Below, piece after piece: positions 12,846 to 25,527 of a DNA stretch of 64,000 nt. The position numbers and the translations under genes are program-made. The stretch is taken from positions 1 to 64,000 of the forward strand of contig NZ_CP147243.1 of the NCBI RefSeq assembly GCF_037198285.1, in the 5' to 3' direction. Position 1 is the stretch's first letter, and every line of letters starts with the position of its first letter. The stretch comes from Haladaptatus sp. DJG-WS-42 (GTDB taxonomy: Archaea; Halobacteriota; Halobacteria; Halobacteriales; Halococcaceae). A model generated the notes under the pieces. It saw only the letters and a list, made by a program, of their open reading frames with translations. It was not told where the DNA came from and did no database searches.

Positions 12846-12928
12846 CCGAGAGAACCGTTCTGTCTGCATTCTGCCACTCTTTTTGGCAAACCTAAACTTC
12901 AAGTCTGGGTAGCGATTCCGGCTAGCCA

Positions 12929-13627
12929 ATGAGTACACACGAAGCCGAGGCGTTCACCTTCGACGACCTCGCCGTTGTGATGGGATCGTACAACGAAGCT
13001 GACGCGATTGCGGCGGTCTGTCGCGACATCAACGACGTCACCGACGAACGAGCGGAAATCGTCTGCGTCGACGGTTCGTCAGACCGTACCCCTGAAATCG
13101 CCCGCGAACACGGCGCAACCGTCGTCGAACAGGAGCCACAGGGCTACGGCATCGCCGTGAAAGAAGCGGTCGAAACGCCAGACAGGCCCGTCGTCGTCAC
13201 AACCGACTGCGACGACACGTACCCAATGGCCAGATTACCGGACTTCCTCGACAAAATCAACGAGGGCTACGACGTGGTCAGCGGCGACCGCCTCTACTAC
13301 GGCGCAGACGCGATGCCCGCGTTCAATCGCTTTGGCAATGAGGCGTTCGCGCTGCTCGCAAGTACGCTCATGGGAAAGCGCGTCCACGATACGACGACTG
13401 GCATGCGCGCCTACCGCCGCGACGTGATTCAGCAAATCGAGTGGACCGAGAACACCGGCCTCTCCGCAGAACTGCTGATGCGCCCGCTCATGCGCGACTA
13501 CCGAATCTACGAGCTGCCCATCGAGTACCACGAACGCGCAGGCGAGACGAAGCTAGACCCACTCTCTGGCGGGGCAGCGATTGCAAAATCCATCGTCAAG
13601 GTCGCGGCCGAAGAACACCTGCGGTAA
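12929..13627 (+). CDS. GT2 glycosyltransferase, dolichyl-phosphate sugar synthase-like
   Basis: Cytoplasmic-face GT-A enzyme that should move a sugar from a nucleotide donor to dolichyl phosphate. The 232-residue protein has the N-terminal nucleotide-binding strand VVMGSYNEADAI, the EIVCVDGSSDRTPEIA block, the TTDCDDTYPM segment (DxD-type metal site near residue 95), and the GMRAYRRDV acceptor-loop typical of DPM1/AglD-like synthases. There is no C-terminal membrane domain. Its stop codon abuts that of the GT-C membrane glycosyltransferase on the opposite strand. A functional pairing (making and then spending Dol-P-sugar) is plausible but inferred. Confidence 0.88.
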   Translation: MSTHEAEAFTFDDLAVVMGSYNEADAIAAVCRDINDVTDERAEIVCVDGSSDRTPEIAREHGATVVEQEPQGYGIAVKEAVETPDRPVVVTTDCDDTYPMARLPDFLDKINEGYDVVSGDRLYYGADAMPAFNRFGNEAFALLASTLMGKRVHDTTTGMRAYRRDVIQQIEWTENTGLSAELLMRPLMRDYRIYELPIEYHERAGETKLDPLSGGAAIAKSIVKVAAEEHLR

Positions 13628-15820
13628 TCACGCGCTCGTCGCGTTCGTCTCGAAGGAGACGCCAGCGATGTAGTCGTCCGCGCCCGGCAGATACGTGCCC
13701 TCGTACCCGCAGTTTGCCTGCAGGCGACAGACGCGCTTTTCGGGCGGCCAAATGAGTTTGACGGAGTCCTTTTTCGGGTCTGCAGCAATCGACACTGCCT
13801 GCCGGTAGGTCACGGTCGAACCGCCGGGCTGGACGAACGTCACCGAGAGCACGACCTCGTCGGTGTCGGCGAGGGCGACCGTGTTGTTTTCGCCCCCACC
13901 GAACCGCCGGAGCTGTTCGTTTTGGATGCTTGCGTTCTCGGGCGTTATCGTCCAATTGAGTGCGAGCGTGCCGTTCAACTCGCCCTCGTAGGCGTATTGG
14001 ACGACTTCGCCGTCGGATTCGAGGCGCACCGTTGCTGACTCTGCGGCGGTCACCACGCCCACAGCAGTTTGGAGGCGGTGTGCAGAGCCGTTTCGAACGG
14101 CGAGGGGCTGAATCGCCGGGGTCACCGGTTCAGGGTCAGCCGTCCAGTCACCGCGGAAGGTGTAGCGGTAGAGGTTCCGGTCTGTGTACCGCCCGATGAC
14201 CGCGAAGTCGTCTTCCGGCGCACTGTCGATGGCGTACACCGCATTTCCGTCGAGGTGGGGCTGATTTCGCAGCGACTGGAACGGGTGGTTGAGCCAGTCG
14301 CCGTACGGCGTGGCGACGAACACGAGCGCGTTGTCGAACTGCTGGGTTTCGAACGGTTCGTAGGCTGACTCGTAGCGTTCGGTGTAGCCGCGATTCTCCG
14401 AGACGGGGTCTGCGAGAACGGCCATCTCGGCGGAGGCGACGACGGGCACACAAATGACGAGCGCGGTGAGAAGTACGGCGCGGGCCGTCTTCGCATCGAA
14501 TCGAGAGCGGACTGTTTCGCGGGCGAGGTCTGCGATGAACAGTGCGCCTGCCGCCCCGAAGACGGCAATCGGGAGGAGCAAGTCGAAGTGATAAAACGGC
14601 CCGAACTGTGCGATGAGGCCGTCCGTAGGCGTGTCCATTCGCCCGAGGATGTTCAGGTTGCCCCAGAAAAAGACGTTGCCAGCCGTAATGCTCACGAACA
14701 GCGCAGCGAGCATCCAGCGAAGCGTCCCGTCGGTGAGACTCCACGGATTCACCGAAATATCGTCTCTGCCCACGCTTGAGCCGACGCCGAGCGCGACGAG
14801 CGCCGTGCCGAGAATACCGGCGGGGAGCCAGCGCGTGGCAAACTCCCAGAGGACGTGGGCGTTGGCTTCGATGGCGAGCGAGGGGCTGTAGATGCGCTCG
14901 TAGCCGAGCAGTTCCTTGCGGCCAAAGCCGATGCCGTCGAGCGGCGCGAACGCCTCGAACGGGAAAATGAACGGCGAGCCGGTGACGTGGGCGTTGTAGG
15001 CAAGCGCGAGCGCCACGCCAGCGCCGCCGAGGACGCCGATGACGGCGTTTCTGAACGTGACGGTGAGCAGGGGTTCACCAGCAGGCAGCGAGACACCGAT
15101 GGTTGAAATCGCGTGGAAGATGAACGGCGCGGCGAACAACATCGCAGTAAACGGCCGTGAGAAGAAGGCGAGGCCGATGGCCACGCCAGCGAGGGCGGCG
15201 TAGGCGTAGCTTCGGCGGCGAATCGCGCGGACGTAACCGAAGGCGAACAGCAAATTCAAGAAAAACGTCGGCGCGTACGGCAAGAACACCGACGAGGAGA
15301 TGAGAAACAGTGGGCTTGCGAGGAGGACGACGATGGCAACGAAGCTCGTGCGCGTATCGAACGCTTCTCTCGTGAGGAGGGCAACGAGAACTGCAGAGCC
15401 AACGGCAATCAGTGCGAGACTGATGCGTGGCTCGCCAAGCGCCATGCCGACCGCGAACATTGCGGCGGGGACGGGGGCGTATTTGGGGTACAGTCGAAAA
15501 CCGTCTTGGACGAAAAACCACGGGCGGAAGGCGTCAGGCAGCGGGGTGGCGAACCAGAGTTCGCCAGAGAGCAGGAGCTGCGCCTGTTGGAGATACACAC
15601 CTTCGTCGTGGTTCGACGAGTGGTACGGAAACAGGTCTGTGGCGATGGCGAAGATGACGACGCCGACGAGCGCACTGAGGAGGGCGAGTGCGAGGGACGT
15701 GAGGACGGCCCGTTTCAGTTCGGACGCATCTGCGTACTTCCCTGGGGGCGCATCGGGTTGGGAATCGTCGGCTGGTGTCGTATCGTGGGGGGACTGGGTT
15801 CGGGGCTCCCGGTTAGTCAT
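13628..15820 (-). CDS. GT-C fold membrane glycosyltransferase (ArnT/GT39-like)
   Basis: Large integral membrane protein of 730 residues that should use a lipid-linked sugar on the outer face. A cytoplasmic Pro/Asp-rich N-terminus (1-35) precedes the first membrane helix. The first external loop holds SSNHDEGVYLQQAQLLLSGE, the acidic catalytic motif of this clan. Around ten more hydrophobic helices follow up to about residue 450, then a 280-residue extracytoplasmic C-terminal domain rich in beta strands. The gene start overlaps the stop of the ABC ATPase by 8 bases, so it is transcribed with the iron-type transporter. Acceptor (S-layer, pilin, lipid) unknown. Confidence 0.82.
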   Translation of the reverse strand: MTNREPRTQSPHDTTPADDSQPDAPPGKYADASELKRAVLTSLALALLSALVGVVIFAIATDLFPYHSSNHDEGVYLQQAQLLLSGELWFATPLPDAFRPWFFVQDGFRLYPKYAPVPAAMFAVGMALGEPRISLALIAVGSAVLVALLTREAFDTRTSFVAIVVLLASPLFLISSSVFLPYAPTFFLNLLFAFGYVRAIRRRSYAYAALAGVAIGLAFFSRPFTAMLFAAPFIFHAISTIGVSLPAGEPLLTVTFRNAVIGVLGGAGVALALAYNAHVTGSPFIFPFEAFAPLDGIGFGRKELLGYERIYSPSLAIEANAHVLWEFATRWLPAGILGTALVALGVGSSVGRDDISVNPWSLTDGTLRWMLAALFVSITAGNVFFWGNLNILGRMDTPTDGLIAQFGPFYHFDLLLPIAVFGAAGALFIADLARETVRSRFDAKTARAVLLTALVICVPVVASAEMAVLADPVSENRGYTERYESAYEPFETQQFDNALVFVATPYGDWLNHPFQSLRNQPHLDGNAVYAIDSAPEDDFAVIGRYTDRNLYRYTFRGDWTADPEPVTPAIQPLAVRNGSAHRLQTAVGVVTAAESATVRLESDGEVVQYAYEGELNGTLALNWTITPENASIQNEQLRRFGGGENNTVALADTDEVVLSVTFVQPGGSTVTYRQAVSIAADPKKDSVKLIWPPEKRVCRLQANCGYEGTYLPGADDYIAGVSFETNATSA

Positions 15821-16970
15821 CCGCCGGACTATCGACCCTCCAGCGGCTGTCAGGTGGGAACCACGCGAGGTCGTGGTCAGCCGCGAGCGAGACGGTTACC
15901 GGCATCCCGAGAGAGACGCGGGCATCGTGATTATGCATACACTCAAGTACGTCTCCCGTTTCGAGTTCCACCCGATATAGCACTGTTGGCCCAAGGTAGC
16001 GACGGTAGACGATATGACCGCCCGCCTGCGATTCGCTCGCTGGCCGGGCGACGAGGTCGTCGGGACGTACGAGCACGTCGATTTCCGTCTCGTCGTACTC
16101 CGTGACGAGGCCGTGGATTTGGTCACGTGGAATCGTCCCGATACCCGTCTCGACGCTGTCGCCGGAGACGGTTCCAGAGAGGAAACTCGCGTGGCCAAGG
16201 AAGCCCGCGACGAACCGCGACTCTGGGTGCTGGAACACCTGTTCAGGGCTGCCGATCTGTTCGAGTTTCCCGTCGTTCATCACCGCAACGCGGTCTGAGA
16301 TGGAAAAGGCCTCTTCCTGGTCGTGGGTGACCGAAATCGCAGTGACGCCCGCCTCTTTGATGATGCGTCGGACTTCCTCGCGCATCTCGACACGGAGGTC
16401 TACGTCTAAGTTCGAAAACGGCTCGTCTAAGAGGAGGATTTCTGGTTCGGGGGCGAGCGAGCGCGCGAGGGCGACCCGCTGTTGTTGCCCGCCTGAAAGC
16501 TGGTCTGGCGTGCTCTCGCGGTGGGTGGTGAGGCCAACGAGGTGGAGGAGTTCCTCGACACGCTTCTCGCGCGCCGCTTTCGGCATGTCCTTGAGGCCGA
16601 AGGCGATGTTCTCTGCGGCGGTGAGGTGGGGAAAGAGGGCGAACTCTTGGAACACGACGCCAATGCCGCGCTCTTCGGGTTCGAGGAATCCGCCGTTTCC
16701 AGCGACGACCGTGTCGTTTAAACGAATCGTCCCGTCGTCCGGGCGGGCGAGTCCAGCAATGAGGCGGAGCGTTGTCGTCTTCCCACACCCCGACGGGCCA
16801 AGTAGGGTGAGGATTTCGCCTTCGCGGACGGAAAACGACAGGTAGTCTAAGACGCGCTCGCTGCCGAAGGACTTGCCCACGTCATTGAGTGTGAGCACGG
16901 CCCGGTCTGAAGGTTCATCGAGTGGTTCATCGACTGAGATATTTCTTGGTGCAAAATCGCTATTTGACAT
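15813..16970 (-). CDS. ABC transporter ATP-binding protein (Fe3+/thiamine-type)
   Basis: ATPase subunit of a binding-protein-dependent importer. The 385-residue protein shows Walker A GPSGCGKTT (58-66), Q-loop VVFQEF near 106, signature LSGGQQQR (158-165), Walker B ILLLDE (178-183) and the switch His in SVTHDQEEA. A C-terminal TOBE regulatory domain covers about 255-380, as in the FbpC/PotA/CysA group. It overlaps the permease gene by 11 bases and the glycosyltransferase start by 8 bases, so translation is coupled along the block. The upstream iron-type operator and the binding-protein type favour iron as substrate; phosphonate or thiamine cannot be excluded. Confidence 0.93.
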   Translation of the reverse strand: MSNSDFAPRNISVDEPLDEPSDRAVLTLNDVGKSFGSERVLDYLSFSVREGEILTLLGPSGCGKTTTLRLIAGLARPDDGTIRLNDTVVAGNGGFLEPEERGIGVVFQEFALFPHLTAAENIAFGLKDMPKAAREKRVEELLHLVGLTTHRESTPDQLSGGQQQRVALARSLAPEPEILLLDEPFSNLDVDLRVEMREEVRRIIKEAGVTAISVTHDQEEAFSISDRVAVMNDGKLEQIGSPEQVFQHPESRFVAGFLGHASFLSGTVSGDSVETGIGTIPRDQIHGLVTEYDETEIDVLVRPDDLVARPASESQAGGHIVYRRYLGPTVLYRVELETGDVLECMHNHDARVSLGMPVTVSLAADHDLAWFPPDSRWRVDSPADD

Positions 16971-18594
16971 CGTATCCCTCCATTGCGAGCATCACGAGCA
17001 TCGACAGCGCCGAGACGACTACGAGCACGAGCGCGGGGATGGCCGCGTGCCCGAAGTGACCGGAGGCCTGTGCCGACCAGATGTGCGTGACGAGCGTCTT
17101 GAAGCCCGTTGGCCGCAAGAGCAGCGTCGCGGGCAGTTCCTTCATCGTCGTCAAGAAGACGAGCAACGCCCCGCCAAGTAAGCCGGGCGCGACGAGCGGC
17201 AACGTCACCTCGCGGAACGCGGCCACCGGTGAGCGTCCGAGCGTGCGGGCGGCGTCAGAAAGCGTCGGGCTGACTTGTAAGAACCCAGCGCGCGTCGAAC
17301 CGACGGCCTGGGGCAGGAAGCGCACGACGTAGGCGAAGATGAGCAGCGGGAACAAGATGAGTTCTTGCTGGTAGAATTGCCCGCCGTAGCGCGCGCCGAA
17401 GTAGACGAGCGCGAGACCCATCACGACGCCCGGGACGGCGTAGCCGACGTAGGAGGCGCGTTCGATGAGCCACGACGCCCGCGAGCGGTGGCGCACGGCG
17501 AGATAGGCAATCGGGAGTCCAGCGAGCCCGGCAACGAGTGCGGCCACCGCCGAAACGCCGACTGAGTTAAACGCGTACTCCCACTGGAACGCAAGCGAGG
17601 CAGCAGCAGATTCAGAGCCACCGCGAATCAGCCACGCCGTGAGAATCCCGACGGGGACGACGAGCGCGAGGCCCGCAACGCCGAGACAGAGTGCGAGTGC
17701 GGGCCATTTCCACGCGCCAAGGTGAACGAGCGCCCCGCGCGTCGAGGTACCACTCGTCGAGATGGTGTCGCTCCCACGCACGCGTGACTCGATTGCGAGA
17801 ATGACGAACGTCACGACGACGAGTTGGAGCGACAGGAGTGCGGCGAGGTCTTGGCCGAACGTCGAAAGCGAGTTCTGCTCTGCGTAAATCACCTTCGTGA
17901 ACACGTCAAAGCGCATGATTGCGGGCGTGCCGAAATCAGAGAGCGTGTAGAGAGCAACGAGGAGCGCACCGGCGGTGACCGCCGGACGAATCTGTGGAAT
18001 CGTTACCCGGCGAAACGCCTCCGTGCGTGAGTGTTTGAGGGTGCGCGCGGCGTCCACGAGGCGGGCGTCCATCGTCTTCAGTGACGCCCGCGTGGAGATA
18101 AACACGTAGGGGTAGGTGTACAGCGTCATCACGAGCGCCGCGCCGGTAAACCCATAAATTTCGGGGAGTTGTTCGATGCCGAGCGGGGCGAGCAACGATT
18201 GGAGTTCTCCTCGTGGCCCGAACGCGGAGACGAAGGCGAACGCGCCGATGTAACTCGGAACCACCAGCGGCATCGAGAGTGCCACCGTCCAGAAGCGTTT
18301 GAACGGCAGATTCGTCCGCACCGTGAGGTACGCGAGCGGGACGGCGATGACGATAGAAGCTGCCGTGACGACGGCAACGAGCAGCGTGCTGTTCAGAAAC
18401 ACCCGGAGGGTCGTTTCACGGGTGAGCAAGTCGAGTGCAGTCGTGCCGCCGACTTCGAGGGCGTTTGCAAGAATCCAGACGAGCGGGAACACGACGGCGG
18501 CCGCGATGGCACCAGAGAGCAGCGTGAGGCCGAGCGGTAGTGACGACTCACCGCGCTGCGAACTGGGGAAGAGCGAATCTGTCTCTGGAGCCAT
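16960..18594 (-). CDS. ABC transporter permease, fused two-domain FbpB type
   Basis: Inner-membrane channel of the importer, 544 residues with about twelve transmembrane helices arranged as two tandem permease domains (about 15-265 and 300-540). Each carries an EAA-like loop that docks the ATPase: DAARTLKHSRTEAFRRVTIP near 185 and DAARTLGRSPVAAFREVTLP near 465. The internal duplication is the hallmark of the FbpB/ThiP/SfuB ferric-iron and thiamine permeases. It starts 7 bases after the binding-protein stop and overlaps the ATPase gene. Confidence 0.93.
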   Translation of the reverse strand: MAPETDSLFPSSQRGESSLPLGLTLLSGAIAAAVVFPLVWILANALEVGGTTALDLLTRETTLRVFLNSTLLVAVVTAASIVIAVPLAYLTVRTNLPFKRFWTVALSMPLVVPSYIGAFAFVSAFGPRGELQSLLAPLGIEQLPEIYGFTGAALVMTLYTYPYVFISTRASLKTMDARLVDAARTLKHSRTEAFRRVTIPQIRPAVTAGALLVALYTLSDFGTPAIMRFDVFTKVIYAEQNSLSTFGQDLAALLSLQLVVVTFVILAIESRVRGSDTISTSGTSTRGALVHLGAWKWPALALCLGVAGLALVVPVGILTAWLIRGGSESAAASLAFQWEYAFNSVGVSAVAALVAGLAGLPIAYLAVRHRSRASWLIERASYVGYAVPGVVMGLALVYFGARYGGQFYQQELILFPLLIFAYVVRFLPQAVGSTRAGFLQVSPTLSDAARTLGRSPVAAFREVTLPLVAPGLLGGALLVFLTTMKELPATLLLRPTGFKTLVTHIWSAQASGHFGHAAIPALVLVVVSALSMLVMLAMEGYDVK

Positions 18595-18601
18595 AAGCTG
18601 G

Positions 18602-19780
18602 TTAGACGCTGATGCCGACTTCGCGCATCAAGTCGAGCGTTGGGCGAATGTCGGACAACTGCGTGAGGTCAAGGTCTGCAGGTGGATTGAGTTCGTCGAT
18701 TGTTGGGAGGTCGCCGACCGGTTCGACGTCGGGGATGAGTGGATACTCGAACGTCGTGGTTGCGAAGTACGCTTGGGCTTCAGCAGAGAGCAGGTGGCGC
18801 ACGAAGTTCGCGGCCAGTTCCGTGTCTTCTGCGGTGTCCACGACCGCCGCGCCGGCGACGTTGAAGATGGCTCCGGCGTCACCTTCGGTGAACGCGGTTG
18901 CGAGTGGGGCGTCTTCGCGGTCTGCGAGCACGCGCTGGATGTAATAGTGGTTCGTAAAGCCAGCGTCAATTTCACCGTCTGCGACGGCGAGCGCGATGGC
19001 GAACTCGTCTGTGTACTCCTCGACACCGAGGTCGACCATGCCCTGAAGCCACTGTTTCGTGGCTTCCTCGCCGTTTAAGATGCGCATGGCCGTGACGAAC
19101 GCTTGGAACGAGCCGTAAGACGGAGCCCAGCCCATGCTGTCGGCCAGTTGTTCTTGGTCGGGGAACGCCATAATGTCGGTCGGAATGTCCGATTCGCTGA
19201 GCGACTCCGTGTTGTACGGAATCGTCCGCGCGCGCCCAGAGGTGCCGACCCAGTTGCCGCTCGGGTCGTGGAACTCTTCGCGCACCATGTCGGTGACGTC
19301 GCTCGGGAGGGGCTCGGTACGGTTTTCGTCCGCGAGGAAGCCAAGCGACCCGGCGTTGACGGAGAAGAACACGTCTGCGGGACTGTTCTGGCCCTCGTTT
19401 AGAATCTTCTGGACGAGCTGGCTCGACCCTTCGTACCGTGGCTGAATGTCGAGGTCGGGGTAGAGGTCTTCGATGTAGGCGATGAGTTCGCCAACGAGTG
19501 CCTCGCCGCGCCCGGAGTAGATAGTGAGTTCGCCAGCAAGGTCTGGCATGTCCTGCATCGACGTGCCGCCTTGAATCTGGTCGCCGATGCGCCCAGAGCC
19601 GATCTGGCCGAACTCGGGAGTTTCGGTGGCGTTCGCGTCTTCACCAGAAAGGAACTGTGTACAGCCGGCGAGCGAAGCGACCCCGACGGCCGCACCAGCA
19701 GACTGCAAGAATCGACGTCGGGACGTGCCCAGTGTTCGACGGCCAGCACCGCCGGCGTCGGACGTGTCTCTCGAATCCAT
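18602..19780 (-). CDS. Tat-exported lipid-anchored substrate-binding protein, iron type
   Basis: Extracellular solute-binding protein of 392 residues. Twin arginines in TSRRRFLQSAG (21-23), a hydrophobic stretch and lipobox LAGC (Cys40) give a Tat lipoprotein. The mature part is a FbpA-like two-lobed binding protein: LTIYSGRGEALVGELI at its start, RYEGSSQLVQKILNEG, DVFFSVNAGSLG, and a distal NHYYIQRV motif resembling the tandem-Tyr ferric-iron ligands of FbpA proteins. An ATTTAGG-N4-CCTAAAT palindrome sits between a TTAAA TATA-like element and the start codon, as expected for metal-dependent repression. First gene of the transporter block. Confidence 0.92.
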   Translation of the reverse strand: MDSRDTSDAGGAGRRTLGTSRRRFLQSAGAAVGVASLAGCTQFLSGEDANATETPEFGQIGSGRIGDQIQGGTSMQDMPDLAGELTIYSGRGEALVGELIAYIEDLYPDLDIQPRYEGSSQLVQKILNEGQNSPADVFFSVNAGSLGFLADENRTEPLPSDVTDMVREEFHDPSGNWVGTSGRARTIPYNTESLSESDIPTDIMAFPDQEQLADSMGWAPSYGSFQAFVTAMRILNGEEATKQWLQGMVDLGVEEYTDEFAIALAVADGEIDAGFTNHYYIQRVLADREDAPLATAFTEGDAGAIFNVAGAAVVDTAEDTELAANFVRHLLSAEAQAYFATTTFEYPLIPDVEPVGDLPTIDELNPPADLDLTQLSDIRPTLDLMREVGISV

Positions 19781-19788
19781 TATTACTA

Positions 19789-19806
19789 ATTTAGGGCCGC
19801 CTAAAT
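19789..19806. promoter_or_regulatory. Iron-type operator upstream of the ABC transporter operon
   Basis: ATTTAGGGCCGCCTAAAT is a palindrome with 7-base arms around a 4-base spacer. On the minus strand it lies 9-26 bases before the ATG of the binding protein, just downstream of TTAAA (19814-19810), so bound protein would block initiation. The arm TTTAGG/CCTAAA matches the half-site type bound by DtxR/IdeR/SirR-family metal regulators (Idr1/Idr2 in Halobacterium). Regulator identity is inferred. Confidence 0.75.
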
Positions 19807-19829
19807 CACTTTAACCTGCCGGTTCGGGG

Positions 19830-20999
19830 TCAGTCGTCTGCGACGGCTTCGACGGCCTGTTTTGGGTGGGACTCGCCGAGTTCTGCGAGGCAGTCGAGCC
19901 AGTCGTGCATGTACTCGCCGACGAAGTTGAGGAAGTCGCCGTTGTTCCACTGGTCGAACTCGCCGTCTGCGAGAGTGTCTGCCATCGCCTCGAACGCTTC
20001 TGCGTAGGAGTCTGCGTCCTCGCCGACCTCGTCTACGAGTTCCCAGACGTGCTCGTTGAGTTCGAGCGCGGGAACTTCGTTGTTCAGGTCGTCGAACGTC
20101 GAACGTGGCGCTTTGTTGTGCTCGCACAGCGGGAAGCCGTTGTAAATCTCGGTTCCCATGATGTCGCAGGCGCGCTTGAGGAAGACGCCGCTCCAGATGT
20201 CGTCAAAGCGCCCGACGTTCCACTCGTTGTCGTCCATTGGGAGCTGGTAGAACGCGGGGATAACCTCGCGGCGGAAGGCGAGATTCATCGAGCAGACGGT
20301 GAGGTAGTTGTCGCGGGCGGCAACAAAGTCGTTGGAGAAGTCTGCATGCCCGGTTCGCGTCTGGGCTTGCCCTTGTAGGTCACCGTCCATGAGGATGCGC
20401 ACGGCGTCTAAGTCAGGGACGTTCGTCCAGAGGCCTTGTGAGGCGACGACGTCTGAGATTTCGGTGGTGTCGGTCTTGACCGTCTCGTTCATCGCGGCGT
20501 ACGGGTAGCCACGCGGGTACAGGCCGTGTTCGTCCGCGTTTTGGTAGAGGACGTTTACCCACTGGGTGTCAGACTGGACGCGCTCGATGTCGCCCTCGTA
20601 GTCGAGGTTGGCCAGGTGGCGACCGAAGAAGTCCTCCTCCGGGTGTGGGAGGGTGTCGTCGTCGATGAAAAAGCCGAGGTCGTACTGCGGGTTCGCCCAC
20701 ATGTAGAGCAGGCCAAAGCTCGTCTCTGCGTGGCTCGCAGCGGGGATGATGTGTGAGTAGTCACCGATATCGTGGGCGTCGTACCACTCCTCGCGGCGAG
20801 AGCCGTCGAACACGTCTCCGGACACGCCTTCGTCTTCGAGCATCGCTTCCATGGCGTCAGTGTCACAGAAGTCCTCTGTGACGAGCAGGAGATGGAGCCT
20901 GTCTATGTCGAACTCGTGTTCGCGTGCGTTGTCAAGATACGCCCGGACGCACTCGTACTCGCGGATAGTTGGGATGATGACACAAATATCGGTGGTCAT
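19830..20999 (-). CDS. Reversibly glycosylated polypeptide / UDP-arabinopyranose mutase family (GT75) protein
   Basis: A 389-residue soluble protein usually annotated in haloarchaea as alpha-1,4-glucan-protein synthase. Plant relatives are UDP-arabinopyranose mutases that become reversibly glycosylated on an Arg. Visible features: N-terminal strand DICVIIPTIREYE, the acidic triplet D113-D114-D115 in FIDDDTLPHPEEDF that binds the nucleotide sugar, the RVQSDTQWVNVLYQN segment, and TVCSMNLAFRREVIPAFYQLP, a strongly conserved block in this family. The archaeal substrate is unknown. Its start region carries a TTTAGG-N4-CCTAAA operator like that of the iron transporter 49 bases downstream, so both should respond to the same metal signal. 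Confidence 0.82.
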   Translation of the reverse strand: MTTDICVIIPTIREYECVRAYLDNAREHEFDIDRLHLLLVTEDFCDTDAMEAMLEDEGVSGDVFDGSRREEWYDAHDIGDYSHIIPAASHAETSFGLLYMWANPQYDLGFFIDDDTLPHPEEDFFGRHLANLDYEGDIERVQSDTQWVNVLYQNADEHGLYPRGYPYAAMNETVKTDTTEISDVVASQGLWTNVPDLDAVRILMDGDLQGQAQTRTGHADFSNDFVAARDNYLTVCSMNLAFRREVIPAFYQLPMDDNEWNVGRFDDIWSGVFLKRACDIMGTEIYNGFPLCEHNKAPRSTFDDLNNEVPALELNEHVWELVDEVGEDADSYAEAFEAMADTLADGEFDQWNNGDFLNFVGEYMHDWLDCLAELGESHPKQAVEAVADD

Positions 21000-21019
21000 T
21001 GGTCGGTTGAATCTATCTT

Positions 21020-21035
21020 TTTAGGTCGCCCTAAA
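21020..21035. promoter_or_regulatory. Second iron-type operator, upstream of the GT75 gene
   Basis: TTTAGGTCGCCCTAAA has the same 6-base arms and 4-base spacer as the box at 19789-19806. It lies 21-36 bases before the minus-strand ATG at 20999, where a leaderless haloarchaeal TATA box would be, so binding should compete with TBP/TFB. Two matching palindromes of this length within 1.2 kb are unlikely by chance. Confidence 0.75.
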
Positions 21036-21164: not shown

Positions 21165-21273
21165 CATATATAATCCCATATTAGGATAATGCTTATCCCT
21201 CTATCACGGAACGCTTTGAATAAGGGGAACGGGAGTGAGGAACAATGATAAATAGATGGTTCCAATTTGGAAC
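21165..21273 (+). promoter_or_regulatory. Promoter region with two operator-like palindromes before the acyl-CoA operon
   Basis: A strong TATA element CATATATAAT (21165-21174) is followed by GGATAATGCTTATCC (21184-21198), a perfect 6-3-6 palindrome at the expected initiation zone. Further on, ATAAATA (21248-21254) is followed by GTTCCAATTTGGAAC (21259-21273), a perfect 7-1-7 palindrome. The operon's first gene starts at 21307 behind a GGAG ribosome-binding site (21295-21298). The layout suggests two promoters, each with its own operator. Regulators are unknown. Confidence 0.6.
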
Positions 21274-21306
21274 GTCTCCCGTATCAACCCACCTGGAGAT
21301 TACAAA

Positions 21307-22050
21307 ATGGATCTGGAACACCAAACATGCGTTGTAACCGGTGCCTCTCGGGGTATCGGCCGTGGGATTGCTGTTGAATTAGCCAGCGAAGGGGCAAACG
21401 TCGTCGTGAACTACCGCTCTTCAGAGGGCGAGGCGTACGACGTCGTCGAAGAGATTGAAGAAGCCGGTGGGACGGCCATCGCCGTCCAAGCAGACGTTGC
21501 GAACATCGACGAGGTCGAAGCCATGCGCAAGAAGGTCACCAACGCCTTCGGTCCGGCGACGGTGCTCGTGAACAACGCGGGCATCACGGTGGACAAGAAG
21601 TTCACCAACATGACCCGCGAAGACTGGGACCGCGTCATGGACGTGAACTTAGGCGGAATCTTCAACTGCACGAGCGTCTTCTTCGACGACATCACCGACT
21701 CCAAAGACGGCCGCCTCATCAACATCTCAAGCGTCGTTGGCCAGCAGGGGAACTACGGCCAAGCGAACTACGCGACCACGAAAAGTGGCCTGTTCGGGTT
21801 CACCCGGACGATTGCCCTCGAAATGGCGCGCTCGCGGGCCACCGCGAACTGTGTCGCACCTGGTTTCGTCAAGACAGACATGCTCGAAACGGTTCCAGAC
21901 CGTGTCCAAGAGAAAATCATCCAGCGCATTCCGCTTGGGCGCTTCGCCGAAGTAGAAGACATCGCGGGAATGGTTTCGTTCCTCGCGAGCCCGAAATCCT
22001 CGTACATGACGGGCCAGATTCTCGGCGTGAACGGCGGCATGGAGTGGTAG
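21307..22050 (+). CDS. SDR-family 3-oxoacyl-CoA/ACP reductase (FabG/PhaB-like)
   Basis: NAD(P)H-dependent reductase of 247 residues in the classical short-chain dehydrogenase family. It has the cofactor motif TGASRGIGRGIA (about 11-22), NNAGI near 92, the catalytic Ser in NISSVVGQ and the YATTK motif with catalytic Tyr and Lys, ending GVNGGMEW. ATG 21307 follows a GGAG ribosome-binding site by 8 bases; the earlier ATG at 21256 overlaps the operator and is rejected. Three bases separate it from pccB. With the thiolase genes downstream it probably reduces 3-ketoacyl-CoA (a PhaB-like step in polyester or beta-oxidation chemistry). No PHA synthase is in the window. Confidence 0.92.
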   Translation: MDLEHQTCVVTGASRGIGRGIAVELASEGANVVVNYRSSEGEAYDVVEEIEEAGGTAIAVQADVANIDEVEAMRKKVTNAFGPATVLVNNAGITVDKKFTNMTREDWDRVMDVNLGGIFNCTSVFFDDITDSKDGRLINISSVVGQQGNYGQANYATTKSGLFGFTRTIALEMARSRATANCVAPGFVKTDMLETVPDRVQEKIIQRIPLGRFAEVEDIAGMVSFLASPKSSYMTGQILGVNGGMEW

Positions 22051-22053
22051 GCA

Positions 22054-23610
22054 ATGAGTGGGGACGAGGGATCTGGGGCTGGGGAGCTTCAGAAACGACG
22101 AGAGCAGGCGGAAAACGGCGGCGGTAAAGAGCGCATCGAAGCCCAACACGAGAAGGGAAAGCTCACCGCACGCGAGCGTATCGACTACTTCCTAGACGAC
22201 GGAACGTTCCACGAGTTTGACCAGTTCGTCGAACACCGATGTACGAACTTCGGGATGGACGAGCGGACGCAGGCCGGAGACGCGGTCGTGACGGGCTACG
22301 GCGAGGTTGATGGCCGGAAAGTGCTCGTCTTCGCCCACGATTTCACCGTGTTCGGTGGCTCTGTGAGCGAAGTCGTTGGCCAGAAAATCGCCAAGGCGAT
22401 GGAACACGCCATCAACAACGGCGTTCCCATCATCGGCCTCAACGACTCCGGCGGCGCACGGATTCAGGAAGGCCTCGACGCACTCGTGGGCTTTGCGAAA
22501 CTCTTCAAACTGAACACGAAGGCTTCGGGTGTCATCCCACAGATTTCATCGATTATGGGGCCGTGTGCGGGTGGAGCGACCTACTCGCCTGCACTCACCG
22601 ACTTCACTGTCATGGTGCAGGACACGAGCCACATGATGATTACCGGCCCCGAGGTCATCAAGACCGTCACGGGCGAGGACATCACGATGGAAGAACTCGG
22701 CGGGGCAGGAGCTCATTCAACGAAAAGCGGAGTTGCTCACTTCGTCTGCGACGACGACAAAGAGGCGCTTGACCACATTCGCGCACTGCTCTCGTACCTC
22801 CCGTCGAATCACTTAGAAGACCCACCGCGCGTCGAGTCATGGGACGACCCAAACCGGACACTCGATGACATCCTGGACATCGTTCCCGAAGACCCGAAAA
22901 AACCCTACGACGTGCGCGACGTTGTAGACCGCGTTGTAGACGAGGAGTCGTTCCTCGAAGTCCAGCCTGCGTTCGCGCGCACGGTCGTCACCGGCTTTGC
23001 GCGCATGGACGGCAAGCCAGTCGGCATCGTCGCCAACCAGCCAAAAGTCAACGCGGGCACGCTCGACATCGACTCGAGCGAGAAGGCAGCCAGATTCGTG
23101 CGCTTTTGTGATGCCTTCAACTTCCCCATCATCTCGCTCGTAGACGTGCCCGGATTCATGCCGGGAACCGAACAGGAGCACAACGGCATCATCCGTCACG
23201 GCGCGAAACTCATCTACGCATACGCAGAGGCAACGGTGCCGCTGCTCACCGTCATCACGCGCAAAGCCTACGGCGGCGCGTACATCGTGATGGCCTCGAA
23301 GTTCCTCGGCGCGGACGTGAACTACGCCTGGCCAGAAGCTGAAATGGCCGTGATGGGGCCACAGGGCGCGGTAAACGTCCTGTTCAGAAAGCAGATTGCG
23401 GCCGCAGACGACCCGGATGCAGAACGCGAACAGCTCATGGAGGATTTCCGCGAGGAGTTTGCGAACCCGTACGCCGCTGCGAAACGTGGCTACGTAGACG
23501 ATGTGTTGCACCCGCGCGAGACGCGAACGCGGCTCATTGCCGACCTCGACTTACTCGAACGCAAGCGCGTTGACAGCCCGGACAAAGCACACGGAAACAT
23601 CCCACTATGA
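22054..23610 (+). CDS. pccB: Acyl-CoA (propionyl-CoA) carboxylase, carboxyltransferase subunit
   Basis: Transfers CO2 from carboxybiotin to propionyl- or acetyl-CoA. The 518-residue protein contains the two crotonase-like halves of the family: first half with GYGEVDGRKVLVFAHDFTVFGGS and NDSGGARIQEG, second with GFARMDGKPVGIVANQP, LVDVPGFMPGT and KAYGGAYIVM. Glycine-rich oxyanion-hole motifs (CAGGATYSPAL and YGGAY) are intact. It sits in a tight operon: 3 bases after the SDR gene and overlapping the PccX-like gene by 4 bases (ATGA). The biotin carboxylase/BCCP subunit (PccA) is not adjacent and must be encoded elsewhere. Confidence 0.93.
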   Translation: MSGDEGSGAGELQKRREQAENGGGKERIEAQHEKGKLTARERIDYFLDDGTFHEFDQFVEHRCTNFGMDERTQAGDAVVTGYGEVDGRKVLVFAHDFTVFGGSVSEVVGQKIAKAMEHAINNGVPIIGLNDSGGARIQEGLDALVGFAKLFKLNTKASGVIPQISSIMGPCAGGATYSPALTDFTVMVQDTSHMMITGPEVIKTVTGEDITMEELGGAGAHSTKSGVAHFVCDDDKEALDHIRALLSYLPSNHLEDPPRVESWDDPNRTLDDILDIVPEDPKKPYDVRDVVDRVVDEESFLEVQPAFARTVVTGFARMDGKPVGIVANQPKVNAGTLDIDSSEKAARFVRFCDAFNFPIISLVDVPGFMPGTEQEHNGIIRHGAKLIYAYAEATVPLLTVITRKAYGGAYIVMASKFLGADVNYAWPEAEMAVMGPQGAVNVLFRKQIAAADDPDAEREQLMEDFREEFANPYAAAKRGYVDDVLHPRETRTRLIADLDLLERKRVDSPDKAHGNIPL

Positions 23611-23966
23611 CCACGCAAATACTCCAACACCCAGCGGAACTCGAACTCCACGGACGCGACAACCCGCGTCCTGAGCCAGCACCAGTAGAACAGCAACCAC
23701 CGAAACCGGAACTGCCGCCCATCGAGCTTGAAGATGGACGGACGATTTCGGTCCCGGACAACGCCACGGATGCCGAGATGGCGGCGATTGCAGCCGCTGT
23801 GAGCGCACACCTCTCAGCAGAGGATACGGCTCGCACCGAGGCAGAACAGCCGACGTCGGAGAGTAACTGGTCGGTTGCCCGGCGGCTCACGGTGGGCCGT
23901 GAAGCACGCCGGTTGCCACATGCAGCGAGCGGTGATGCGTGGAAACTTGCGGGCCGTCTGCACTGA
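23607..23966 (+). CDS. pccX: Small acyl-CoA carboxylase subunit, PccX / epsilon-like
   Basis: A 119-residue protein with a Pro-rich N-terminal half and a short conserved core, DGRTISVPDNATDAEMAAIAAAV (residues about 44-66), ending in a Trp/Arg-rich tail (NWSVARRL, DAWKLAGRLH). The core resembles the small epsilon subunits that stabilise carboxyltransferases in actinobacteria and the PccX subunit described for Haloferax mediterranei propionyl-CoA carboxylase. Its ATG overlaps the pccB stop (ATGA), which supports stoichiometric coupled synthesis. Assignment rests on context and the short core motif rather than on a strong domain. Confidence 0.75.
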   Translation: MTTQILQHPAELELHGRDNPRPEPAPVEQQPPKPELPPIELEDGRTISVPDNATDAEMAAIAAAVSAHLSAEDTARTEAEQPTSESNWSVARRLTVGREARRLPHAASGDAWKLAGRLH

Positions 23967-24013
23967 CCACGTCACCGAAACACACACAGTAATTCACTGA
24001 TTCAGTCACATAC

Positions 24014-25165
24014 ATGGACGTCGCAGTAATCGGGGCGTCGATGACCCAGTTCGGGAAGCGCGAGGGCTGGATCCGCGACCTGCTCGCGGAAGCCGGCGAA
24101 GCGTGTCTCTCTGACGCGGGCGTCGCCCCCACAGACGTAGACCACCTGTACGTATCGAATATGGCGAGCGGCGAGTTCGAAGGCCAAACTGGCGTTCCGA
24201 ACATGCTGGCCCACGACCTCGGCGCGATGCCTGCCTACACCGCACGCATCGACCAGACCAGTTCCTCTGGCGGCGCTGGTATCTACCACGCGTGGCAGTC
24301 GGTTGCCTCGGGTACAAGCGAGATGACGATGCTCGTTGGCGGCGAGAAGATGACCCACCGTTCGACGGCCGAATCGACGGACATCATCGCCTCAATTACG
24401 CATCCCGTCGAGTACAAACACGGCCTGACGCTGCCGAGTTTCGCCGGTCTCACCGCCCGACTCTATCTCGACAAATACGACGCACCGCGCGAGAGTCTGG
24501 CGAAGGTCGCAGTGAAAAATCACAAAAACGGCGTGGACAACCCCCACGCCCAGTTCAGGAAGGAAGTCGATTTGGAGACGGTCATGGAGTCGCCACTCGT
24601 GGCCGACCCGCTCCGTCTTTACGACTTCTGTCCCATCACCGACGGCAGCGCCGCGCTCATGTTCTGTCCCGAAGAGGTCGCCAAGGAGTACACCGACGAG
24701 TACGTCGTCGTCTCCGGTGTTGGCGGCGCGACGGACACGCACGTCGTCCACGAACGCGACGACCCGACCGTCATGGGCGGGGTCGTCGAAAGCGGAAAAC
24801 AGGCCTACGAGATGTCCGGCTACGGCCCGGAGGACATCGACGTGGCCGAACTCCACGACATGTTCACCATCCTCGAATTCCTCCAGAGCGAAGGCCTCGG
24901 CTTCTTCGAACCCGGCGAAGGCTGGAAGGCAGTCGAAGAGGGCGTCACCGAACGCGACGGCGACCTCCCAGTCAACACCTCCGGTGGTCTCAAATCGAAG
25001 GGCCACCCGCTCGGTGCATCGGGCGTCGCGCAGGGCTATGAAATCTACAAACAGCTCATGGGAGAGGCCGGAGCACGCCAGGTCGAAGCCGATGTCGGCC
25101 TCTGTTGTAACGTCGGCGGCTTTGGAAACTGTGTTATCACCACGATCATGGAGGCCCGCCAATGA
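24014..25165 (+). CDS. Haloarchaeal-type beta-ketothiolase, catalytic (alpha) subunit
   Basis: SCP2/thiolase-fold enzyme of 383 residues that condenses or cleaves acyl-CoAs. N-terminal strand VAVIGASMTQFGKR, then the active-site loop DQTSSSGGAG (80-89), where the usual nucleophilic Cys is Ser83. Downstream are the conserved His motifs AELHDMF and KSKGHPLGASG and the C-terminal CNVGGFGNC. Haloarchaeal BktB/PhaA ketothiolases have been reported to work with a Ser-His-His set and to need a separate OB-fold subunit; both traits are found here, since the next gene is that subunit and overlaps by 4 bases. Position behind SDR and pccB suggests C4-C5 acyl-CoA chemistry. Confidence 0.88.
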   Translation: MDVAVIGASMTQFGKREGWIRDLLAEAGEACLSDAGVAPTDVDHLYVSNMASGEFEGQTGVPNMLAHDLGAMPAYTARIDQTSSSGGAGIYHAWQSVASGTSEMTMLVGGEKMTHRSTAESTDIIASITHPVEYKHGLTLPSFAGLTARLYLDKYDAPRESLAKVAVKNHKNGVDNPHAQFRKEVDLETVMESPLVADPLRLYDFCPITDGSAALMFCPEEVAKEYTDEYVVVSGVGGATDTHVVHERDDPTVMGGVVESGKQAYEMSGYGPEDIDVAELHDMFTILEFLQSEGLGFFEPGEGWKAVEEGVTERDGDLPVNTSGGLKSKGHPLGASGVAQGYEIYKQLMGEAGARQVEADVGLCCNVGGFGNCVITTIMEARQ

Positions 25166-25527
25166 GCTTCGACGCCTACCGTTGTCCGAATGGGCACATC
25201 ACGTACCCGAGCCACCCACTCTGTCCGGAGTGCGGTGAGAAACAGACGGAAACGGTGGACCTCACCGAGGAGACGGCGACCGTCATCACGTGGACGACGA
25301 GCACGGCAACGCCACCCGGTGTCGAGGCGCCGAACACGATTGCCGTCGTGGAGTTCGACGTCGAGGGCGAGACGGTTCGCGCCATCGGACAGGCCACGAC
25401 CGACGAAATCGAGATTGGCGACGAAGTCCGTCCCGTCTACGCAGACCAACTCCGCGAACCCGGCGCGGGTATCCGTGAGCCGGAGAGTCAGGAGTGGGAT
25501 GGGTACCGATTCGAACCTGTCCTGTAA
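25162..25527 (+). CDS. OB-fold zinc-ribbon protein (DUF35), thiolase beta subunit
   Basis: A 121-residue protein with an N-terminal rubredoxin-like zinc ribbon (RCPNGHITYPSHPLCPECGE; Cys8, Cys21 and Cys24 with a possible fourth ligand His12) and a C-terminal OB fold (residues 40-110) containing VAVVEFDVEGETVRAIGQ-type strands. DUF35 proteins organise acyl-CoA transfer between SCP2-type thiolases and partners, and in haloarchaea form the second subunit of beta-ketothiolase. Its start overlaps the thiolase stop (ATGA), so the two are coupled. The last codons are repeated 58 bases downstream (see the repeat at 25510). Confidence 0.87.
   Translation: MSFDAYRCPNGHITYPSHPLCPECGEKQTETVDLTEETATVITWTTSTATPPGVEAPNTIAVVEFDVEGETVRAIGQATTDEIEIGDEVRPVYADQLREPGAGIREPESQEWDGYRFEPVL

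Follow-up and report, generated by a model that had tools for sequence, protein, structure and literature searches.

The 64,000-nt stretch of Haladaptatus sp. DJG-WS-42 DNA analyzed here (the window) probably carries an iron-starvation module of haloarchaea, which joins ferric iron import to a short sugar-transfer pathway. A sequence-only reading of the window had proposed that matching operators would raise an iron importer, a membrane glycosyltransferase and a mutase-like protein together when iron is scarce, with a change in cell-surface sugar as the outcome. This interpretation was supported by our analysis, and iron-starved cells probably do change a sugar at their surface.

Genes and Operators of the Locus

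The features of the locus, in window coordinates, are as follows.

12881-12896, no strand assigned: operator 3, TTTTGGCAAACCTAAA, one mismatch, 32 nt before the GT2 start (12929)
12929-13627, plus strand: GT2 dolichyl-phosphate hexose transferase (NF041391, 398 bits, cut-off 375)
13628-15820, minus strand: GT-C membrane glycosyltransferase with a DUF7846 domain (PMT_2, 1.3e-6; DUF7846, 2e-53)
15813-16970, minus strand: ABC ATPase of the FbpC/PotA type (ABC_tran and TOBE_2)
16960-18594, minus strand: ABC permease of the fused FbpB type (BPD_transp_1 in two stretches, Pfam)
18602-19780, minus strand: binding protein (SBP), an FbpA-type Fe(III)-binding lipoprotein (ferric-binding protein 7w3w, E = 1.9e-58; Tat-type RR, lipobox Cys)
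19790-19805, no strand assigned: operator 1, TTTAGGGCCGCCTAAA, SBP promoter, exact TTTAGG-N4-CCTAAA, spacer GCCG
19830-20999, minus strand: GT75, predicted NDP-pyranose/furanose mutase (Pfam RGP, 1.7e-16; MtdL structure 7yua, E = 9e-22)
21020-21035, no strand assigned: operator 2, TTTAGGTCGCCCTAAA, GT75 promoter, exact TTTAGG-N4-CCTAAA, spacer TCGC

Profile, structure-linked and fold matches upheld the gene identities first proposed from the sequence (iron-type ABC transporter, GT-C, GT75). The SBP is related to solved ferric-binding proteins and has their Tyr-Tyr ligands, with RR, GC and N277-H278-Y279-Y280 invariant in relatives. An AlphaFold model of the SBP, built from nine relatives, reached a pLDDT of 44, which is too low for judging tether contacts. 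The importer operon runs into the GT-C gene through gene overlaps, as had been noticed, with 11 nt shared by permease and ATPase and 8 nt by ATPase and GT-C.

The GT2 passes the NCBIfam equivalog test NF041391. In the GT-C, D72-E73 is invariant among relatives and corresponds to the acidic motif of the first outer loop. Searches of the PDB with the GT-C sequence profile gave nothing meaningful; only the Foldseek fold search gave matches, to AglB, STT3, ArnT, ALG9 and Emb. The protein thus combines a GT-C fold with the acidic motif, the fold being read from a modest model (pLDDT 59).

Residues DDD113-115, R163, R264, D267 and H294 of the GT75 are invariant in 12 relatives. These include the DDD motif, the glycosylated Arg (R163) and the metal-binding His (H294), and the study of MtdL found the DDD motif, glycosylated Arg, His metal ligand and catalytic Arg and Asp to be important (PMC9937993). 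The GT75 is therefore predicted, from its retained main catalytic residues, to be an NDP-pyranose mutase-like enzyme. In two genomes (L078 and L081), a second GT75 type, ~60% identical and lacking operators, adjoins a sulfatase-like gene and a UPF0104-like multi-spanning membrane protein, which suggests a separate surface-glycan use. FabG, carboxyltransferase, thiolase-like and DUF35 genes (21256-25527 in the window) adjoin the divergently oriented GT75 gene in several families; the carboxyltransferase has no conserved operators of its own.

Operators 1 and 2 are both exact palindromes with the same arms and spacer length, as the sequence-only reading held, and their spacer letters differ. The positions given there were right, except that the first palindrome begins at 19790 rather than one base earlier. 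Their placement at the starts of the importer operon and GT75 was also borne out: operator 1 ends 9 nt from the SBP start codon (19780, minus strand) and operator 2 ends 20 nt from that of GT75 (20999, minus strand). The third operator, at the GT2 promoter, was absent from that reading. At ≤2 mismatches, the 64-kb window held three palindromes against a mean of 0.49 in shuffles. The DtxR/IdeR-type operator consensus is a palindrome with TTAGG...CCTAA arms, and these arms are present in the TTTAGG-N4-CCTAAA sites. Archaeal TATA boxes are found ~25-30 nt upstream of where transcription starts, and in haloarchaea the leader is often very short, so a protein bound at operators 1 or 2 would probably block transcription.

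A Proposed Pathway and Its Acceptor

We infer that iron would be the signal and repression the mode of control. With metal plentiful, a DtxR-family repressor would probably occupy the TTTAGG-N4-CCTAAA sites, overlapping the core promoters of the SBP, GT75 and GT2, and hold all three transcripts off. Under iron starvation the repressor would leave, and the FbpA-type importer would be made together with GT75, GT2 and GT-C. GT75 would then convert an NDP-pyranose to an NDP-furanose, GT2 would transfer the sugar to dolichyl phosphate, the UPF0104 flippase-like protein found in many lineages may flip the lipid-linked sugar, and GT-C would pass the sugar to an acceptor outside the membrane. This acceptor would most likely be a molecule of the iron-uptake surface; the leading single candidate is a serine of the SBP tether.

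This serine belongs to a Gly-Ser-Gly (GSG) triplet, residues 61-63 of the SBP, between the lipobox and the ferric-binding domain. GSG was present in all 114 glycosyltransferase-linked SBPs (109 distinct tethers, since the loci were drawn from two collections overlapping in a few genomes). It is the only invariant triplet of an otherwise variable tether and nearly always lies 17-21 residues before the ferric-binding domain. SBPs not linked to glycosyltransferases form three lineages nested in the linked clade, plus an outside group lacking the motif in register. One nested lineage of eight contained GSG (3), GTG (1) and GDG (4), a pair kept GSG, and the third lineage (two proteins) had lost the triplet. 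Among the 10 nested proteins with a triplet, therefore, five had GSG, four GDG and one GTG; compared with 114/114, Fisher's exact test gave p = 1e-6, a value uncorrected for relatedness. Judging by sequence conservation, the sugar enzymes thus seem to keep the tether serine in place where they are present, which makes this residue a candidate glycan acceptor. Retention of GSG in five SBPs without the enzymes points to another role as well, or to slow decay, so the pattern does not prove the acceptor. Tentatively, and with a likelihood clearly short of even, we propose a dedicated glycosylation system in which GT75, GT2 and GT-C would attach a sugar, probably a furanose, to the GSG serine of the FbpA tether under iron shortage.

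The strongest alternative is that the enzymes alter the S-layer, a surface lipid or an exopolysaccharide under iron control, the SBP being only jointly regulated and not the acceptor; we consider this a real possibility, lying not far below an even chance. Halocatena and its genus-mates (g75; L114, L119) speak for it, as they keep GT2, GT-C and GT75 side by side but have lost the importer genes (SBP, permease, ATPase) along with the two operators. At the two Halocatena-type loci examined, decay has left the GT75 operator with 2-3 mismatches, and no SBP was found beside the second GT-C copies in these genomes. Another acceptor is consequently possible, and iron control is not obligatory: iron control goes with the importer, and the sugar enzymes can serve another acceptor. 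GalE-like genes and operator-bearing UPF0104 genes, typical of surface-polymer pathways, also adjoin the block in many lineages, and the operator-less second GT75 has its UPF0104-like and sulfatase-like neighbors. Against a general surface polymer stand the dependence of tether-serine conservation on the enzymes and the gene order in 23 of the 78 genomes carrying the GT75-GT-C pair, in which the permease and ATPase are elsewhere and GT-C directly follows the SBP, at 39-233 nt.

A Probable Iron-Type Regulon

The palindrome marks iron-uptake promoters throughout the genome (2.78 Mb), where nine exact and four one-mismatch sites were found compared to one for the reversed-pattern control, consistent with the earlier expectation of a non-random motif. 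One promoter with operators is that of a hydroxamate-type siderophore operon, which encodes an aminotransferase, a decarboxylase, IucA/IucC and a Lys/Orn monooxygenase; others belong to a Peripla_BP_2 (FhuD-like) binding protein and a FecCD permease/ATPase pair, in addition to the FbpA genes. Further operators have as neighbors the gene of a ZIP transporter, a gene with a metallo-beta-lactamase fold, a GNAT/epimerase locus and the pair for an exported GMC dehydrogenase (C1:65493). This regulon make-up, with its siderophore, FhuD-like and FecCD targets, indicates iron. It is strongly supported that the sites are operators of an iron-type repressor co-regulating the importer and sugar genes, its binding being predicted from the sites themselves.

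Two DtxR-family proteins are encoded in the genome. The one at C1:218298, in our reading, carries Asp at the positions of Met10 and Cys102 of DtxR. Such a site resembles the Mn-type sites of MntR and, with the one operator by the ZIP transporter gene, would fit operators whose signal is manganese or metals generally instead of iron. We consider this unlikely, as most annotated targets are ferric-iron genes (siderophore, FecCD, FhuD-like, FbpA).

Several observations accompany the regulon. Operators are paired, 35-36 bp apart, at the siderophore-synthesis, FhuD-like and FecCD promoters (C1:93309/93344, 482637/482673 and 1870160/1870196), compared with single operators at the sugar and FbpA genes. 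A variant perfect palindrome, TTTAGACGCGTCTAAA, lies at C1:218488-218503, 7 nt before a DtxR/FeoA-domain regulator gene; it recurs exactly at C1:1280375 and with one mismatch at C1:2028441, and is perhaps a second type of metal operator. At C1:65493-65508, 1.5 kb past the window end, a one-mismatch operator precedes the genes of a Tat-type gluconate-2-dehydrogenase subunit 3 and of a GMC oxidoreductase. The iron-glycan locus of many relatives includes these two genes, with an operator of their own, which suggests that an exported sugar oxidase belongs to the iron regulon; that this sugar dehydrogenase makes a chelating sugar acid is speculation. In another region of surface-polysaccharide genes, an exact operator (C1:984134; L018:7135-7150) separates a GNAT-family gene from one for an NDP-sugar epimerase and is followed by a 41-aa ORF with four Cys (L018:7217-7342).

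Conservation of Linkage and Operators in Relatives

The distribution of GT75 and GT-C was identical across 117 genomes of the order, with both present in 78. In all 78 the two genes lie on the same contig and strand with the SBP between them, so the link between GT75 and the importer first seen in a single genome extends to every carrier in this draw. A larger draw contained GT75 in 293 of 392 genomes. GT-C was lacking from all 15 GT75-negative genomes with a related SBP. Of the 117 genomes, 27 have a member of the SBP family but no sugar genes, which indicates that the sugar is not needed for such importers in general.

Operators with ≤1 mismatch were found upstream of GT75 in 112/117 loci, between GT75 and the SBP in 102/114, upstream of GT2 in 83/87 and upstream of UPF0104 in 41/44. 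At the same threshold, none was found upstream of GT-C (0/108) or PCCB (0/17). The relatives' loci (1.56 Mb) contained 215 exact sites, and the reversed pattern had no match there. The four spacer letters vary among the exact sites. In Haloferax volcanii, iron starvation raised HVO_1859 11.6-fold and HVO_0655 12.7-fold (PMC11349517). These genes (UPF0104 and GalE family, respectively) were considered as members of the locus and rejected, as the Haloferax loci examined have no such genes beside GT75.

It is very improbable that the linkage is an ancestral gene order without function, in which the GT75 operator merely serves the downstream importer: GT75 is the gene immediately upstream of the SBP and shares its strand, which would allow one promoter for both, but the matching presence and absence of GT75 and GT-C, the separate, conserved operator of the opposite-strand GT2 and the retention of the block across more than 10 families of the order all argue against it.

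Significance and Comparison with Known Systems

The proposed module would give an archaeal GT75 protein a physiological setting, and it predicts that most haloarchaea turn on a sugar pathway when starved of iron. Such a glycan could be missed by surface-glycan studies of haloarchaea in iron-rich media. One named residue, the GSG serine, is open to mass spectrometry, and the presence of the block in Haloferax species makes deletions feasible in a laboratory model.

Haloarchaeal iron regulons are already known, and the importer-linked sugar pathway would be the new part, which we did not find described. Specifically, the open-access papers searched gave no description of iron-controlled, importer-linked furanose-type glycosylation; the main regulon studies, outside this scope, may list part of it. 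The DtxR-family iron regulon of haloarchaea (FerR/Idr/SirR/TroR; Leyn and Rodionov 2015, Schmid 2011, Martinez Pastor 2024, as cited in PMC11349517) shares the control of siderophore and ferric ABC genes and a conserved upstream regulon signal. Linked GT75, GT-C and GT2 genes were not found mentioned as members of this regulon in the open-access papers searched. MtdL and plant UAM/RGP, which are GT75 NDP-pyranose mutases, have the same DDD motif, glycosylated Arg, His ligand and catalytic Arg/Asp (PMC9937993); the GT75 of the window differs from MtdL in having Met at the Gln229 position and His at Asp87, and in its iron-type operator. The ferric importers FbpABC/HitABC share the kind of SBP, matching a ferric-binding structure (E as listed above) and with a Tyr-Tyr pair, as well as the fused permease and the ATPase, whereas the importer described here is tied to glycosyltransferases and has the GSG tether.

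Lipid charging by a GT2 and transfer of the sugar outside by a GT-C are also found in the dolichyl-phosphate sugar pathways of Haloferax (AglD/AglJ/AglS) and in the mycobacterial polyprenyl-P-arabinofuranose/Emb pathway. The locus described here would follow the same division of labor with a GT-C of a distinct subfamily, which carries DUF7846 and is linked both to iron import and to an enzyme predicted to make an NDP-furanose.
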